64,000 nt of DNA from Bacteroidaceae bacterium (GCA_016286165.1 JAEESE010000012.1:1-64000), one strand, 5' to 3'. Shown: positions 7,994-54,816, counted from the first letter of the stretch. Made by a program: numbers and translations. Notes: a model not told the origin generated them from the letters alone.

Positions 7994-8079
7994 AACCTTA
8001 AACTTCGCTCGGCGCTTCCACAGCCCATTCGAGCGAAGCGAGGCCCTCTCCCTAACAGGGGAGAGCGGGGAGAGAGGCC
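7994..8079 (-). repeat. Right arm of inverted repeat pair
   Basis: Reverse complement of 4908-4922 plus 5003-5070. Confidence 0.9.
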
Positions 8080-8081
8080 CT

Positions 8082-8160
8082 TAACTACTAACTCTTAACT
8101 ATTAACTCTTAACTATTAACTCTTAACTCTTAACTATTAATTCTTAACTCTTAACTCTTC
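8082..8160. repeat. Heptanucleotide tandem repeat (TAACTMT)n
   Basis: taactct/taactat units, about 11 copies, adjacent to the GH2 3' end. Confidence 0.85.
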
Positions 8161-8166
8161 TTTAAA

Positions 8167-11151
8167 TCATAGGGCGGGAGCGAGGATGGAGGAGAGGGGC
8201 ATGAGGTAGGTGTCGTATTGTGTTGCGAAGGGACGGAAGGGTGCGGGGATGTTGGCGGGGTCGAGAAATAGGCGGCGGAGGGGATAAGGTGTGTTGCCTG
8301 CCTGGGTGGGGTAGAGGTAGAAATCGCCGCTGACGGTGCCTACGTTCCTGGCAATGACAGGAAAGGCGGTGCGGGCGAACTTGGGACCTTGTCCTGACAC
8401 GGCGGCGTTGTAGGTGAGGATGATGCCGCGGTCGGTTTGTTCGAAGCTGACATCAGCATTATCGCAAACGAGCAACACTCCATTGCCATTGGCATCGGTA
8501 AGCCAGGCGGCATCAACGCCCCTGCGGTTGCCCTCGAAATAGAGGTCGCCCTGTTGCATAGCCCAGAAACCATAGCGTCCGGCACGGAAGCGGCCTGGAT
8601 AGGTGGGCATAGGGCCATTGCCTATCCATTGCACACGGTCAATATGAGGGTCGAGGAGGAAGGCGAGGCCCAACTCGGAGAGGAAGGTGTCGGAGGAGTC
8701 GGGCGTCAGGGCGAAGGTGTAGTGTATGCCATCGCCCACTGCCTCGGTAGTGATATGAGTGTGGATAGAGCCAGCCTTAGTGCCGTCGGCGGACAGCGGC
8801 TGTATGTATTTCTCAATGCGCTTGTCGGCGACTTTAAGCGTCTCGGCAAGGGTGGGCTTACGTCCGCAGCGGATGAATAATGGATAGCCTACTTCTCTCT
8901 CGGAGGGAGTGGAGGTGGCGGCGAGCCGAAGGGCCTTTAAGCGCGAGCCATTCCGAACGAAAGGAATGGATTGGCGGTTGAAGATACGTGAGTGGTGATC
9001 GCTTATCTCTATGTTCAACAGACAGATTATGGAAGTGTCGGGAAGGGCTGGTAGAATGAAGGGATGGGAGACGGTATTGTGCGGTGGACAATAGGGTGAG
9101 AATGTGCCGCTGTCGATGGTGTCGCGGTCGGCTGTGACAGTCCAATGGAAGGTGATATTGTCCTTGAGGTTAAGGAAATCGAAGCGGTTGCGTATGTGAA
9201 GGAGTATGGTGTCCTGACCTTCACGGAGGGTGATAATGCTGTCGGTGATGGCGGCCTGGGCGTAGTTGTGCTGTAGCTCGTAGTAGTTTGGCAAAGGAGT
9301 GCGATCGGCATATAGGAGGCCGTCGGTGCCTTTGGAGCCCTGCATAGAATAATAATGAGTCCCCGACCCCTTCCCCTCGCTGTGGAGGGGTGATTGGGGG
9401 TTGAGGATTACGTGTTCTTCGTAACCGTAATAGTTGTTTGAGTTTGTTGAATTAGATTCTGTGTAGTCGGGTGTAAAAGATTCCTTGTAGCTGAATGTGG
9501 GCAGACTGTCGCTACTCATCTCACAACCTTGATCTACCCACTCCCAGACAGAGCCGCCGGCGATACCAGGTGTACGTTCGATGAGTTCCCATTGGCGGTC
9601 GTGGTCCTCGAAGGAGATGCCGAGAGTGTGGAGGTACTCGGTAAAGATTACGGGACGGTCGGCACGCTGATAGAAGGTTGCTATCTGGTTGGTGGAGGGA
9701 TAATGTGGAGCGTAGATATCCGCCACCTTGGGGAAATCGTAGTTGAACTTACGGAAATAGCTGCCGACCTGTGGGTAACAGATGGGACGTGATGGGTCGA
9801 GTTCGGACTTCACGTAGTGGCCCAGCTGTATGCATATATCAGTGAGTGGGTTCTCGTTGCCAAGGCTCCATATGAGCACCGATGGGTGGTTCTTGTCGCG
9901 ACGTATGGTGGCCTGTGCGCGCTGCTGCAGCACGGGATAGAAGGTGCTGTCGGAGAGGTTCTTGTCGCCATAGCCGAAAGGCACCTCGTCGATGATGTAG
10001 AAGCCTAATGAGTCTGCCAACTCATAGAAACGCGGCTCGCGTGGGTAGTGTGACGTTCGGATATAGTTGACGGATGCCTCCTTCATCAAGCGCATATCCT
10101 TTAGCGTGAGTTCATCAGAGATAACTTTAATGGTACGAGGGTCTGTGGCATGTGAGGTGACGCCCCGCAACTTGATAGGCTGACCGTTGAGTTTGAGGAC
10201 GTTGCCTTCGATTGTCAGTTCGCGGAAGCCGAACTTATGCTCGAAGGTCTGAAGCGTCTTGCCGCGTTGCTTTAAGGTGGTGCGGAGGGTGTAGAGATAA
10301 GGAGTCTCGGAGGACCAGAGTAAGGGGGTGTGCACACCAATGCAGCCAGCCACTAACCCCTCCCCATGGAGGGGAGATGACGCGAGTTTAGAGGTGGTGC
10401 GATAAGTTCTCAGTCTTTTTGCATCCTTGGCCACCTCACGGTTTACCACTCCCCTGTGTAGGGATGGGCTGATGATTTCGTAGGTGACGGTGGTGTGCTT
10501 GTTGGCATTTGCCACTCGTGTGTCGATGGTTACCTCGCCAGTATTCCTGGTGTGGATTGTGAGGTCGGCGAGGTGAGTGGCGGGCACTGCCATGATGGTG
10601 ACGTCGCGGAATATGCCATTGGGAACCCAGTCGTCGTTGTAGTCGAAGTCGCTGCCCGGGAATTGCGATATGACGCGCATTGCCAGTTGCTCGTTGCCGC
10701 CGCACAGAAGGTCGGTGATGTCGAACATCGCCGTGTTGTAAGCCGAGCGCCATGAGCCAGCCTGACGGCCATTTATCCAAAGGTCGTAGCCATAGAGCAC
10801 GCCGTCGAAACGTATCACTATGCGCTTGCCTTTCCACTCGGCAGGCACAGTGAACGACGTGCGGTAGTAGCCTGTCAGCGGCAGAGCTCGGTCGTAGCTT
10901 GGCTGGCAGAAGCCATATGCCTCCCAACAACCTGGCACGGGTATCTTACGCCAAGTGTCGTCAATGGCCGGCACGGCGAGGTCGTTGGCAATACCCTCGA
11001 CGACCTTGAGGTTCCATGTGCCATTGAGCGACCGCTTCATGGTAGGGTCGGTGACGGGCAGTATGCCTTGGAAGGCATCCTGTGCGGTGATGCTGGCTAC
11101 TGCCAGTTGGCATACGAGTAGTGACAGGCTAAGCAGGCGAAGAAGGTTCAT
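8167..11151 (-). CDS. Glycoside hydrolase family 2, beta-galactosidase-like
   Basis: Signal peptide; GCWEAYGFCQPSYDRALPLTGYYRTSF, RGVTSHATDP, IRTSHYP, LGNENP, FTEYLHTLG, GTDGLLYADRTPLPNYYELQ. Confidence 0.9.
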   Translation of the reverse strand: MNLLRLLSLSLLVCQLAVASITAQDAFQGILPVTDPTMKRSLNGTWNLKVVEGIANDLAVPAIDDTWRKIPVPGCWEAYGFCQPSYDRALPLTGYYRTSFTVPAEWKGKRIVIRFDGVLYGYDLWINGRQAGSWRSAYNTAMFDITDLLCGGNEQLAMRVISQFPGSDFDYNDDWVPNGIFRDVTIMAVPATHLADLTIHTRNTGEVTIDTRVANANKHTTVTYEIISPSLHRGVVNREVAKDAKRLRTYRTTSKLASSPLHGEGLVAGCIGVHTPLLWSSETPYLYTLRTTLKQRGKTLQTFEHKFGFRELTIEGNVLKLNGQPIKLRGVTSHATDPRTIKVISDELTLKDMRLMKEASVNYIRTSHYPREPRFYELADSLGFYIIDEVPFGYGDKNLSDSTFYPVLQQRAQATIRRDKNHPSVLIWSLGNENPLTDICIQLGHYVKSELDPSRPICYPQVGSYFRKFNYDFPKVADIYAPHYPSTNQIATFYQRADRPVIFTEYLHTLGISFEDHDRQWELIERTPGIAGGSVWEWVDQGCEMSSDSLPTFSYKESFTPDYTESNSTNSNNYYGYEEHVILNPQSPLHSEGKGSGTHYYSMQGSKGTDGLLYADRTPLPNYYELQHNYAQAAITDSIITLREGQDTILLHIRNRFDFLNLKDNITFHWTVTADRDTIDSGTFSPYCPPHNTVSHPFILPALPDTSIICLLNIEISDHHSRIFNRQSIPFVRNGSRLKALRLAATSTPSEREVGYPLFIRCGRKPTLAETLKVADKRIEKYIQPLSADGTKAGSIHTHITTEAVGDGIHYTFALTPDSSDTFLSELGLAFLLDPHIDRVQWIGNGPMPTYPGRFRAGRYGFWAMQQGDLYFEGNRRGVDAAWLTDANGNGVLLVCDNADVSFEQTDRGIILTYNAAVSGQGPKFARTAFPVIARNVGTVSGDFYLYPTQAGNTPYPLRRLFLDPANIPAPFRPFATQYDTYLMPLSSILAPAL
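9358..9410 (-). repeat. In-frame palindromic element in the GH2 gene (NPQSPLHSEGKGSG)
   Basis: CCCCTC-gctgtg-GAGGGG at 9373-9390, encoding a low-complexity SPLHSEGKGSG peptide. Confidence 0.65.
10345..10475 (-). repeat. Composite in-frame repeat element in the GH2 gene (SPSLHRGVVNREV...SKLASSPLHGEGLVAG)
   Basis: CCCCTCC-ccat-GGAGGGG at 10357-10374 and TCCCCTGTGTAGGGA near 10448; interrupts the region before TPLLWSSETPYLYTL; boundaries approximate. Confidence 0.6.
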
Positions 11152-42819: not shown

Positions 42820-43671
42820 TCATTTCGGCCGATGGAACTCGTTAACTTTCTTGTGGCAACTGATCTGCTCGTCAGTCTCGGGGAAATGTTCGGCGAGGAG
42901 GTCATATAGGTCCGGGTCATAGTCCTTGAGCTCTTCACGGGTGTTGCACCAGTTGTGCTTTCCATCGGGATGATCCATTTCGGCATTGACGTTAAACCAG
43001 TCCTGTACAGCCTCAGCGAAATATTCCATGTGGTCGGTGATGCGATAGGTACCATTGAGGATGCCACTGGCCTTGGCTTTCTCGTAGAGTTGCTTAAGGC
43101 GACCGTCAAAGTCTGGTTCGGCAATCATCAGACCGATGCAATGGATGGCGTGGGCGAACTCATGGATGAGGATGTCCTCGGCGTGGTATTTATCTATCTG
43201 ATAACCAAGTACATTCTCTTCGGCGCATGAGGTCAGCGGTTCTTCTATGGTGCCGCCTAAGCCACGGGCACGGAGATCCCAGTTCAGGGCGGTGTCGTTG
43301 ACCAGATAATGATGCTCAGGTAGGTCCGTTGTCCCCTCGTATCTCGCCATAATCGCCACGCGGGCGTTGGCTTTAATCATTGCCTGCAGAACTTCAGGTT
43401 TCAGCATGCAGGTCATAGCATACAGAGTACGATGGGCGGCCACGAAGGCAGAATCGGGCACGCGCCACGATGACACTAATGGCAGACCGTTGACATCCAC
43501 ATACTTGACATAGAAGCTGTCAAGACCGAGCGAGTCGGGAACGCTGGATACAATGCACTCAGGGACATCAAATGTCCCATTGGCCTCCTCCAGACCTCCC
43601 CGAGGGGAGGAGTTGCAAGATGAGAGGCATATTGCCAGAAGAATAACGAACAGAGCAAAAAATTTATTCAT
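42820..43671 (-). CDS. Lipoprotein putative zinc metallopeptidase
   Basis: Lipobox LLAICLSSC; ILIHEFAHAIHCIGL HExxH motif. Confidence 0.8.
   Translation of the reverse strand: MNKFFALFVILLAICLSSCNSSPRGGLEEANGTFDVPECIVSSVPDSLGLDSFYVKYVDVNGLPLVSSWRVPDSAFVAAHRTLYAMTCMLKPEVLQAMIKANARVAIMARYEGTTDLPEHHYLVNDTALNWDLRARGLGGTIEEPLTSCAEENVLGYQIDKYHAEDILIHEFAHAIHCIGLMIAEPDFDGRLKQLYEKAKASGILNGTYRITDHMEYFAEAVQDWFNVNAEMDHPDGKHNWCNTREELKDYDPDLYDLLAEHFPETDEQISCHKKVNEFHRPK
43595..43610. repeat. Palindromic element in the N-terminal coding region of the metallopeptidase (SSPRGGLEEA)
   Basis: CCTCCCC-GA-GGGGAGG; exact reverse complement of 43700-43715. Confidence 0.8.
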
Positions 43672-43699
43672 GACTTATAATCATTAGGATTGAAAAGCC

Positions 43700-43715
43700 C
43701 CTCCCCTCGGGGAGG
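43700..43715. repeat. Intergenic copy of the same palindrome
   Basis: CCTCCCC-TC-GGGGAGG. Confidence 0.8.
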
Positions 43716-43736
43716 ATGGGAGGGGGCCTCTTTTAA

Positions 43737-50036: not shown

Positions 50037-51992
50037 TTACTTGTTGTTTTTATGTTTACGGTTGATATTCTTGTTTTTGACAGATGTTGGTGTTTTTGGT
50101 TTAATACCGCCGAAAAGCTGGATTAGGAGGTCCATGCGACCTAAGCGCTTCAGTTCTTCTTCTATACGATGTCGCTCCTCGGGCTTATACCAGAAGAAGA
50201 ACATGCGCTGGGCTTGCTTTTCTGATGGAGTGCGGGCTACGAAGACCGGCTCGAGCGTGTCCGGATCGTAGCCTGTGGCCCACATCGTGGTGGCAGTGGT
50301 CATGGGCGTGGGCGTGAAGTCCTGCACCTGCTCGAGGTGGAAATCGAGTTGCTTGGTTGCTATTGCCAGTTCTGCCATATCCTCGGCATGACAACCTGGA
50401 TGTGAGCTTATGAAATAAGGAATAATCTGCTGACGCAAGCCGCACTCGCGGTTTATCCTGTCGAATTGCCGCTTGAAATCGTAGAACAGACTAAAGGAAG
50501 GTTTTCGCATGAGCCCGAGCACACGGTTGGATGTGTGTTCCGGAGCCACCTTTAGTCGGCCGCTTACGTGGCGCGTTATCAGTTCGCGAGTGTAATCTTG
50601 TGCTGCGCGGTTTAGGGCTTCGTCATGCCAGTCGTGCAACAAAAGGTCGTATCGGACTCCGCTACCTATAAAACTATGTTTAATGTAAGGCAGGGCATCC
50701 ACTGCACGGTAGATATCGAGAAGTGGACGATGGTCGCCATTGAGGTTTTTGCACACGTTGGGATGGATGCATGAAGGTCTGTGGCAGCGACGGCATATGT
50801 CAGGGTTCTTGCCGCTCATCTTATACATGTTTGCCGATGGACCTCCAAGGTCGGAGAGTACGCCGCGGAAGCCTGGCAACTGTGAGATAGCTTCCACCTC
50901 ACGAAGGATGCTCTCCTTGGAACGGCTCATGATATGCTTGCCCTGGTGTGCTGATATTGTGCAGAAGGCACAACCGCCGAAACAGCCGCGATGCAGACAA
51001 ACGGAGAAACGAATCATGTCGTAAGCTGGAATGCGCTTGCCTTCGTAGCGGGGATGTGGCAGGCGGGTGTATGGCAGGTCGAAGGAGTGGTCAAGCTGCT
51101 CGGTGGTCATAGGCGGGAAAGGAGGGTTGACTACTACCCATCGGCCTCTGGCCTGTTGCAGCAACCGATGACCTGTGTCGGAATTGCTTTGAGTCTCTAT
51201 CTTATGGAAGTTCTCGGCGTGGAAACGCGGCTCGTCAAGGCATTCCTCGTAGCTATGTAGAACGATGTCGTCTGTTGTAATGCCTTCAGGAATATCATGC
51301 TCATTGTCGTAAGCCACCACGCTTTGACTTAACGAAGGAAGTGCTTCTCGCAAGGCGGTGGCTGTGAGCATGGCATTACCCTCATCATCGTAGGCGAGGG
51401 CAGGGTGGTAGCTTTCGATGAGCTCAAGACTGAGGCGTGTGAGTTCCAAGGTCGGTTGTTCGCCCATTCCATAAAGAATCACATCGGCTCCGCTGTCGAG
51501 CAGGATACTTGGACGCAGACGCTCCTGCCAATAATCGTAATGTGCAAGACGGCGGAGTGAGGCTTCAATACCTCCGAGCACCACAGGTACGTCTGGGTAC
51601 AATTTCTTCACGGCTTGCGTGTAAACAATGGTAGGATACTCGGGACGGAGATCGTGACGCCCATCGGGCGAATAAGCATCCTCGGAACGCAGTCGGCGGG
51701 CTGCCGTGTATTTGTTTACCATGGAATCCATACACCCTGGAGCCACACCAAACCAGAGGCGAGGGCGCCCCAAACGACGGAAATCACGCAGGTCGCCGTG
51801 CCAGTCAGGCTGCGGGATTATTGCCACACGCAAGCCCTCGGCTTCCAGAAGTCGTCCTATTACCGCAGCACCAAACGAGGGGTGATCAACATATGCATCA
51901 GCCGAGAGCAGGATGACATCAGCCTGATCCCAGCCGCGCTGTTCCATCTCGCGGCGGTTAGTGGGTAAAAAATGACTTGTTGTAAGTGGCAT
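50037..51992 (-). CDS. ygiQ: YgiQ-family radical SAM protein
   Basis: FLPTNRREMEQRGWDQADVILLSADAYVDHPSFGAAVIGR; CLHRGCFGGCAFCTISAHQGK. Confidence 0.96.
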   Translation of the reverse strand: MPLTTSHFLPTNRREMEQRGWDQADVILLSADAYVDHPSFGAAVIGRLLEAEGLRVAIIPQPDWHGDLRDFRRLGRPRLWFGVAPGCMDSMVNKYTAARRLRSEDAYSPDGRHDLRPEYPTIVYTQAVKKLYPDVPVVLGGIEASLRRLAHYDYWQERLRPSILLDSGADVILYGMGEQPTLELTRLSLELIESYHPALAYDDEGNAMLTATALREALPSLSQSVVAYDNEHDIPEGITTDDIVLHSYEECLDEPRFHAENFHKIETQSNSDTGHRLLQQARGRWVVVNPPFPPMTTEQLDHSFDLPYTRLPHPRYEGKRIPAYDMIRFSVCLHRGCFGGCAFCTISAHQGKHIMSRSKESILREVEAISQLPGFRGVLSDLGGPSANMYKMSGKNPDICRRCHRPSCIHPNVCKNLNGDHRPLLDIYRAVDALPYIKHSFIGSGVRYDLLLHDWHDEALNRAAQDYTRELITRHVSGRLKVAPEHTSNRVLGLMRKPSFSLFYDFKRQFDRINRECGLRQQIIPYFISSHPGCHAEDMAELAIATKQLDFHLEQVQDFTPTPMTTATTMWATGYDPDTLEPVFVARTPSEKQAQRMFFFWYKPEERHRIEEELKRLGRMDLLIQLFGGIKPKTPTSVKNKNINRKHKNNK

Positions 51993-52118
51993 TACGACTG
52001 GATATAAATGGCATCACGACCGTATGTAAGTGGCTTCACGACCGTTTGTGTTAGGCTTCACGACCGTATGTGTTAGGCCTCACGACCGTATGTGTTGGGC
52101 TTTACGACTGGTCGCGTT
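51987..52118. repeat. Tandem array of six exact 22-bp units between the lipid kinase and ygiQ
   Basis: Units start at 51987, 52009, 52031, 52053, 52075, 52097; consensus tggcttcacgaccgtatgtgtt. Confidence 0.95.
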
Positions 52119-54544: not shown

Positions 54545-54600
54545 CACCCGCAAAACCGAGAGAGGCAACGCAAGAAGTCTCAATCGGGTGAATGAAAGTT

Positions 54601-54673
54601 GCGTCCTTAGCTCAGTTGGTAGAGCAATTGACTCTTAATCAATGGGTCCAGGGTTCGAGCCCCTGAGGGCGTA
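54601..54673 (+). tRNA. tRNA-Lys(CTT), copy 1
   Basis: GCGTCCT...ATTGA-CTCTTAA-TCAAT...CAGGGTTCGAGCCCCTG-AGGGCGT-A. Confidence 0.95.
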
Positions 54674-54700
54674 CATAATCAAATAAATCGTCATTCATTT

Positions 54701-54773
54701 GCGTCCTTAGCTCAGTTGGTAGAGCAATTGACTCTTAATCAATGGGTCCAGGGTTCGAGCCCCTGAGGGCGTA
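54701..54773 (+). tRNA. tRNA-Lys(CTT), copy 2 (identical)
   Basis: Same 73-nt sequence as copy 1. Confidence 0.95.
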
Positions 54774-54816
54774 CAATATAGGCTTCGTCGCGAGGACGAG
54801 GCTTATATTGTTTTTA
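54774..54816. terminator. Terminator after the tRNA-Lys pair (bidirectional)
   Basis: ACAATATAGGCTTCGTC-gcga-GGACGAGGCTTATATTGT then TTTTTA; the stem begins at 54773, the tRNA last base. Confidence 0.8.

Follow-up and report, generated by a model that had tools for sequence, protein, structure and literature searches.

The DNA analysed here, a 64,000-nt stretch from a Bacteroidaceae bacterium (GCA_016286165.1 JAEESE010000012.1:1-64000) that we refer to as the window, carries a GH2 (beta-galactosidase-like) gene with the Pfam domains Glyco_hydro_2_N, Glyco_hydro_2, Glyco_hydro_2_C, LacZ_4 and Bgal_small_N (Table 1). The gene is rare, being present in 5 of the 139 genomes of the genus, including the source genome, and its four orthologues are 64–74% identical to it. 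According to the original prediction, a palindromic element lies in frame within this gene. Translation of 8167–11151 on the minus strand agrees with this, as the GH2 frame reads through SPSLHRGVVNREVAKDAKRLRTYRTTSKLASSPLHGEGLVAG without interruption. DNA alignments of all four orthologues to the window stop and restart at two places, which we call inserts A and B, and both inserts are missing from each orthologue. Alignment of the GH2 homologues, which had been proposed as a check, likewise showed that none of the four genus orthologues has the peptide of insert A, so that its status as an insertion is established. The prediction had given 10345–10475 and overlooked insert B, a second palindromic in-frame insert in the same gene. 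The net gap at insert A relative to the orthologues is about 30–36 amino acids, and the adjoining host-loop residues have diverged on both sides; the ends of insert A were therefore taken from its tails and not from the alignment.

Table 1 Features of the window discussed in the text
Feature	Coordinates	Strand	Description
GH2 (beta-galactosidase-like) gene	8167–11151	minus	994 aa; carries in-frame hairpin inserts A and B
Insert A	10345–10470	minus	twin-hairpin element read in frame (SPSLHRG...GLVAG); absent from 4/4 orthologues
Insert A, boundary tail	10461–10470		AGCCCATCCC
Insert A, boundary tail	10345–10358		GGTTAGTGGCTGGC
Insert A, intact GC hairpin	10357–10374	no strand	CCCCTCCCCATGGAGGGG = CCCCTCC-ccat-GGAGGGG; 6 exact-pattern genome copies
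Insert A, spacer	10375–10449	minus	75 nt; single copy in 139 genomes; inner stem GAGGTGG/CCACCTC
Insert A, second, decayed hairpin	10450–10464	no strand	TCCCCTGTGTAGGGA
Insert B	9361–9402	minus	one hairpin flanked on both sides by C-rich tails (AACCCCCAATCACCCCTCC-ACAGC-GAGGGGAAGGGGTCGGGG), in frame; absent from 4/4 orthologues
Third hairpin pair	43594–43735	minus	one hairpin ahead of a lipoprotein gene's start codon, the other directly behind its lipobox Cys (ICLSSC-NSSPRGGLEEA)

Insert A had been predicted to carry a palindrome at each end. One of these is perfect and intact, and the other, TCCCCTGTGTAGGGA, is weaker and decayed; on the minus strand it is followed by GTGGTAAACC, which resembles the inner element consensus GTGGTYACC. 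In insert A only the GH2 frame is open, and taken as a whole the insert does not surpass shuffled sequences in folding (z of -0.9 as DNA and -1.2 as RNA). Both results fit an old copy, and insert A thus appears to be old and decayed. A 37-bp part of it matches at 84% identity (E 9e-6) the terminal repeat of an element from Hallella mizrahii (locus L241) that carries a DUF559 gene. We also considered the spacer as a relic of such a gene, given the likeness of TYRTTS to DUF559 N-termini such as TYKTSS, and rejected this for want of a significant match. Insert B encodes NPQSPLHSEGKG and adds a net 36 nt to the gene; its RNA fold clearly surpasses that of shuffled sequences (z -3.29).

The third hairpin pair, which is known from the window sequence, encloses the beginning of a lipoprotein gene, both start codon and signal peptide; one of its hairpins is intergenic. 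A like arrangement occurs elsewhere in the source genome, where a substrate-binding lipoprotein has hairpins on both sides of its signal peptide (loci L082/L013). Such placement could mean that signal peptides are captured or shuffled, or that hairpins inserted separately at tolerant places. Further in-frame hairpin pairs lie in the methionyl-tRNA formyltransferase gene of the source genome (TPSSLPLKGEGGHHPEQLPHQKHIIPLSPFEGERGRGL; locus L106, 2640–2760) and in cysS (locus L105, from 1824), where the pair surrounds apparently ancestral sequence.

Hairpins with arms of C and T only number 4 in the window as against 0–1 in shuffled sequences, and the window's palindrome count with two mismatches allowed is not significant. 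Pattern counts from the window alone were unconvincing, and genome-wide and comparative tests were needed. The source genome has 6 exact matches to CCCCTCN6GAGGGG, compared with 0 for the reversed control. It is very improbable that insert A is an ordinary lineage-specific GH2 loop whose G/C palindromes arose by chance: GH2 loops do differ in length, and the two-mismatch count would be in keeping with such an origin, but it is contradicted by the presence of two inserts in one gene that are both missing from all orthologues, by the 37-bp match to the terminus of a DUF559 element and by the six genomic copies against none in the control.

A search of the source genome for a tail plus half a hairpin gave 68 sites as against 34 in the control, many of them in inverted pairs 110–250 bp apart; the element counts for this genome derive from searches and are lower bounds. 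Reading 20 of the regions revealed a common anatomy, in which an outer C-rich tail (of the types AAGACCC.., GGCCCC.. or AAGACCCCC..) is followed by a GC hairpin, an inner motif near AGTGGTYACCTTYAAGAA, a variable spacer and then an inverted copy of the module. An open frame through the element was missing in 15 of 18 regions of these tail-plus-hairpin subfamilies, which are thus mostly intergenic. Further copies were found in frame within genes of the source genome, namely asnB (twice), an ABC permease gene and lipoprotein genes. Some weak matches to insert A (VAKDA-type; in FtsX-like and other genes) were set aside as chance coding similarity. The 130-bp segment had also been expected to belong to a repeat family, and a search of the genome and its relatives had been suggested. 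That search found copies of the hairpin; no full-length second copy of the 130 bp was found in the 139 genomes of the genus. What recurs is thus the hairpin module alone, and the 130-bp unit as a whole is a degenerate single copy. The two observations that the prediction had named as fatal to it, the peptide as a conserved segment of GH2 homologues and a lack of other copies of the DNA, were not made: the homologues are without the peptide, and the hairpin is copied elsewhere in the genome.

A sister family demonstrates in-frame placement on a larger scale. AsnB of the source genome has two stretches, of net +12 and +36 amino acids, that are extra relative to E. coli AsnB (1ct9). About 40 asnB orthologues in the genus align on both sides of positions 1130–1252 and lack these positions, which represents an empty site for the 36-residue element, while positions 1131–1249 alone, about 118 bp with their spacer, recur elsewhere at 78–83% identity in at least 9 genomes, including the source genome. 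The aligned copies of this family, whose size is about 113 bp, have their tails and hairpins in common along with a portion of the spacer, and the RNA of one of them folds strongly (z -6.4). With one copy as the query we obtained at least 67 hits in 20 of the 139 genomes, a lower bound because six candidates were scored per genome. All 50 distinct contexts that we read lie in open reading frames; the frame stays open for at least 60 codons on both sides in 47 of them, and the other 3 are in frame 36–58 codons from a frame end. A Pfam domain is encoded in the same frame as the element in 44 of the 50. In one more context (L342) the true gene proved to be a HemW/HemN-like frame on the other strand, in which the element is again in frame. 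The hosts include asnB, lpd (two sites), mfd, pheT, truA, an acrB-type pump gene, a Clp ATPase gene (clpB) and valS, as well as an aminotransferase gene, aroE, hemW, feoB, a GH97 gene, a pyruvate formate lyase gene and ispG, and the insertions use both orientations and several frames. Several of them (truA, lpd) are common to related genomes, so that the figure of 50 counts contexts and not independent events. At the asnB site, for which the comparison was with distant empty sites only, the element replaces 15 nt of the empty allele, and no target-site duplication was found. The proposal that the repeat propagates in frame inside protein-coding genes is thus borne out, for this genome and genus, by the empty sites in orthologues, by the dispersed copies and by one family whose 50 contexts all lie in open frames. 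We infer that cells make these peptides and tolerate them. At the same AsnB loop, two other asnB genes (L295 and L303, of genomes G035 and G073) carry unrelated hairpin elements, making this a recurrent insertion site.

These families bear on the middle third of insert A, which may be element or host loop sequence. Two separate single-hairpin insertions could flank an ancestral GH2 loop, with REVAKDAKRLRTYRTTSKLA belonging to the host; the middle resembles a canonical GH2 strand-loop (aligned to AYTLKDASDKTVLEGSRKLES of 3dec) and is unique in the 139 genomes, and hairpin pairs elsewhere, as at 43594–43735 and in the cysS gene of L105, bracket apparent host coding sequence. We consider this origin rather unlikely, as the loop is short at this position in all four orthologues, the GTGGTAAACC beside the hairpin fits the inner element consensus, the spacer contains an inner stem, and the AsnB family moves with its spacer as one unit.

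Two long elements of the source genome contained a DUF559 gene (PF04480; a Vsr-like PD-(D/E)XK nuclease), a link between this domain and the hairpins that the original prediction had not foreseen. Five DUF559 genes score over the cut-off in this genome, and each of the five lies between inverted hairpins. In the genus, 98 of the 139 genomes have DUF559, with one to seven genes each; its absence from the other 41 is at least partly due to incomplete assemblies. To quantify the linkage, we aligned the left flank of 93 genus DUF559 loci to the reverse complement of the right flank. The median score was 61, compared with 23 for mismatched locus pairs, and 86 of the 93 loci scored 30 or more; among 388 control windows of the same geometry, 1% reached 30 and none reached 40. 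DUF559 is likewise hairpin-flanked in public genomes of near-relatives, three of them isolates (Segatella maculosa, Hallella mizrahii and Prevotella denticola), and in plasmid records from Deinococcus (3), Pseudanabaena (2), Sphingomonas (2) and Qipengyuania, with a weak case in Picosynechococcus and an ambiguous one in Synechocystis; outside the genus, the arrangement thus extends to Deinococcota, Cyanobacteria and Alphaproteobacteria. In the alphaproteobacterial cases the tail is on the gene side of the hairpin, which indicates that the orientation of the module is not fixed. The linkage does not hold everywhere: in E. coli, Neisseria, Geobacillus, Sinorhizobium, Azospirillum and Photobacterium, no flanking hairpins were found at DUF559. 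The relatives are mostly metagenome-assembled genomes, as would suit an assembly or binning artefact in a metagenome-derived genome. For the class of elements this is contradicted by the occurrence of the same family at orthologous and distinct sites in 20 genomes, and the hairpin-flanked DUF559 genes of the three isolates and of complete plasmids also speak against it; we regard such an artefact as exceedingly improbable.

 In Sphingomonas and Deinococcus replicons DUF559 genes split the pairs sufB/sufC, paaD/paaZ and pntAA/pntAB (L279, L287 and L290). In two genomes the frame of IspG (GcpE) continues into DUF559, which thereby extends the protein at its C-terminus (L105, 84–1821, and L375, 639–2099), and several other DUF559 genes of the genus lie in open frames of 300–1800 codons, fused to the frame of the upstream gene.

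The hairpins and the nuclease have diversified together. When pairs of loci with non-homologous outer flanks were compared, the 26 pairs whose DUF559 proteins are 80–89% identical had similar hairpins (mean similarity 0.77), and hairpin similarity dropped steadily with DUF559 protein identity, down to 0.26. Over 52 independent sites the Mantel r was 0.30, a value that none of 1000 permutations equalled. Since hairpin similarity tracks DUF559 similarity at unrelated sites, the gene and the ends travel as a unit. In 181 DUF559 proteins, the catalytic residues D54, E65, D67 and H71 are conserved in 100% and D80 in 99%; judged by this conservation, the nuclease is under constraint. VsrA of Caulobacter, a DUF559 protein treated as Vsr-like, triggers a DNA damage response in cells without a cytosine methyltransferase (PMC12907096), which is consistent with nuclease activity. 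Profile comparison identified 3hrl and the homing endonuclease 3r3p (E 9e-8) as the DUF559 relatives with a structure.

We also addressed whether RAYT, the Y1 transposase of REPINs, could be the mover of the C-rich hairpins. No PF01797 match over the cut-off was found in the source genome, which is 92% complete. Y1 transposases occur in 36 of the 139 genus genomes, and 20 of their loci were read as a control; 19 have inverted repeats, of GTAG and other types and not C-rich hairpins. The Y1 loci thus display their own, different hairpins, which validates the flank method and reveals two parallel systems in one genus. A role for RAYT as the mover of the C-rich hairpins was accordingly rejected. 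The RAYT genes of the genus (L395–L414) are flanked by GTAG REPs (for example GGTAGCCAGCCAATTCATTGGCTGG) and by GCCCTGAAAGGGC repeats.

DUF559 might instead be a passenger: a gene for a homing-type nuclease could have invaded, time and again, repeats moved by another enzyme or by replication or repair at hairpins. Its homology to 3r3p, the many short copies without DUF559 and the strong differences in hairpin sequence among elements would fit such a history. Against it stand the tracking of DUF559 similarity by the hairpin sequence across unrelated sites, the lack of any other gene in the elements, and the absence of Y1 from the source genome together with the different hairpins that it carries where present in the genus. 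On balance, we think it unlikely that DUF559 is a passenger.

The elements can be compared with several known systems. In Rickettsia, in-frame palindromic repeats (RPEs) of about 100–150 bp occur in many unrelated genes (PMC10969869, PMC3733652). The elements described here are likewise palindromic repeats of about 100–150 bp in frame in coding genes, but the CGTC end tag of RPE-4 and RPE-6 is not seen in them, their tails, in the repeats compared, being of the C-rich AAGCC, AGACCC and GGCCCC types; it is by description that they are set apart from RPEs. Moreover, a DUF559 gene lies here between the same hairpins, and one family is found solely in open frames (50/50), whereas for RPEs we know of no mobilising gene. 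What stands of the RPE-like architecture that had been predicted is that the elements are palindromic, in frame and present in many genes; by the sequence of tag and tails they are not RPEs. CGTC-tagged REPs, hairpin repeats that are also found within genes and are reported without a dedicated transposase (PMC3733652), differ from our elements in tag and stems. RAYT/REP systems are hairpin-flanked, single-gene mobile units (PMC2817692, PMC3116915). With REPINs and RAYTs our elements have in common the inverted hairpin pairs, the solo hairpins, a full element with a single gene between inverted hairpins, and dispersed gene-less dimers and singles, but they have neither the GTAG head nor a Y1 transposase, their gene being the PD-(D/E)XK nuclease DUF559. 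MITEs, too, are short, gene-less and dispersed, with terminal inverted repeats and a relation to a longer, gene-bearing form; here, by contrast, the ends are hairpins with tails, and the long form is without a DDE transposase. DUF559 belongs to the same protein superfamily as the EDxHD homing endonucleases, such as I-Bth0305I, and Vsr (3r3p, E 9e-8). I-Bth0305I has a role in mobility; EDxHD homing endonucleases sit in introns, and Vsr repairs mismatches. To our knowledge, neither is found between inverted hairpins or with short derivatives. Among 5.4 million open papers, we found no description of DUF559 in a role with hairpins or in-frame repeats. On sequence grounds, the system thus compared is probably one of REPIN/RPE-like mobile hairpins, whose short forms survive in frame and whose mover would be DUF559; DUF559 elements have a reasonable chance of forming a separate class.

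We favour, as likely, the reading that insert A is an old, non-autonomous element and insert B a relative of it, within a superfamily moved by DUF559. Insert A would consist of two inverted modules, each a C-rich tail with a GC hairpin, around a short spacer, read in frame probably in a surface loop of the GH2 beta-sandwich domain, and insert B would be its single-hairpin relative in the same gene. Longer members of the superfamily carry one gene, DUF559 (Vsr/EDxHD-type PD-(D/E)XK), between the same inverted hairpins. An abundant short family of the source genome, AAGACCCCCTCCCCGCTCCCCCTC, for which the assembly contains no DUF559 copy, counts against this reading. We infer that DUF559 is the mobilising enzyme: it would recognise and nick or cut its own hairpins, probably when extruded or single-stranded, and nicking would start the transposition of full elements and of short gene-less ones, as is thought for RAYT and REPINs. 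As the C-rich arms have no stop codons, copies of the right length would persist as extra peptides in protein loops. The wider proposal, for which we see the case as evenly balanced, is that DUF559 nucleases define minimal transposable elements, with one gene set between inverted GC hairpins, that form a hitherto unrecognised class spanning several phyla, and that this class includes gene-less families specialised for in-frame life that spread as peptides in essential enzymes.

How in-frame palindromic elements (RPEs, for instance) and CGTC-type REPs are moved is a standing question, and DUF559 is a concrete candidate for the enzyme. It lies inside full-length relatives, its catalytic residues are conserved, it has diversified along with the hairpins and it occurs in multiple phyla, which makes the question directly testable. 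DUF559, a widespread domain of unknown function, gains a likely role, and a repeat family that adds peptides of 30–40 residues to housekeeping enzymes (AsnB, ClpB, PheT, ValS and TruA) of living lineages is a source of new protein sequence. In genome annotation, such peptides are to be expected, as are DUF559 genes that break operons like suf, pnt and paa.

The window contains other repeats as well. A five-copy tandem array of a 14-bp unit (CTTAACTATTAACT) lies directly downstream of the GH2 gene at 8066–8159, and a tandem array with a 22-bp unit (GGCTTCACGACCGTATGTGTTA) at 51966–52118. A dispersed repeat, AGTTCTTGAAGGGTCAAGCGTCGCAAGCGCCGAG, is present between 3949 and 5923 in two 50-nt copies at 88% identity and a third, partial copy, and two identical tRNA-Lys (CTT) genes stand in tandem, 100 bp apart, at 54599–54775.
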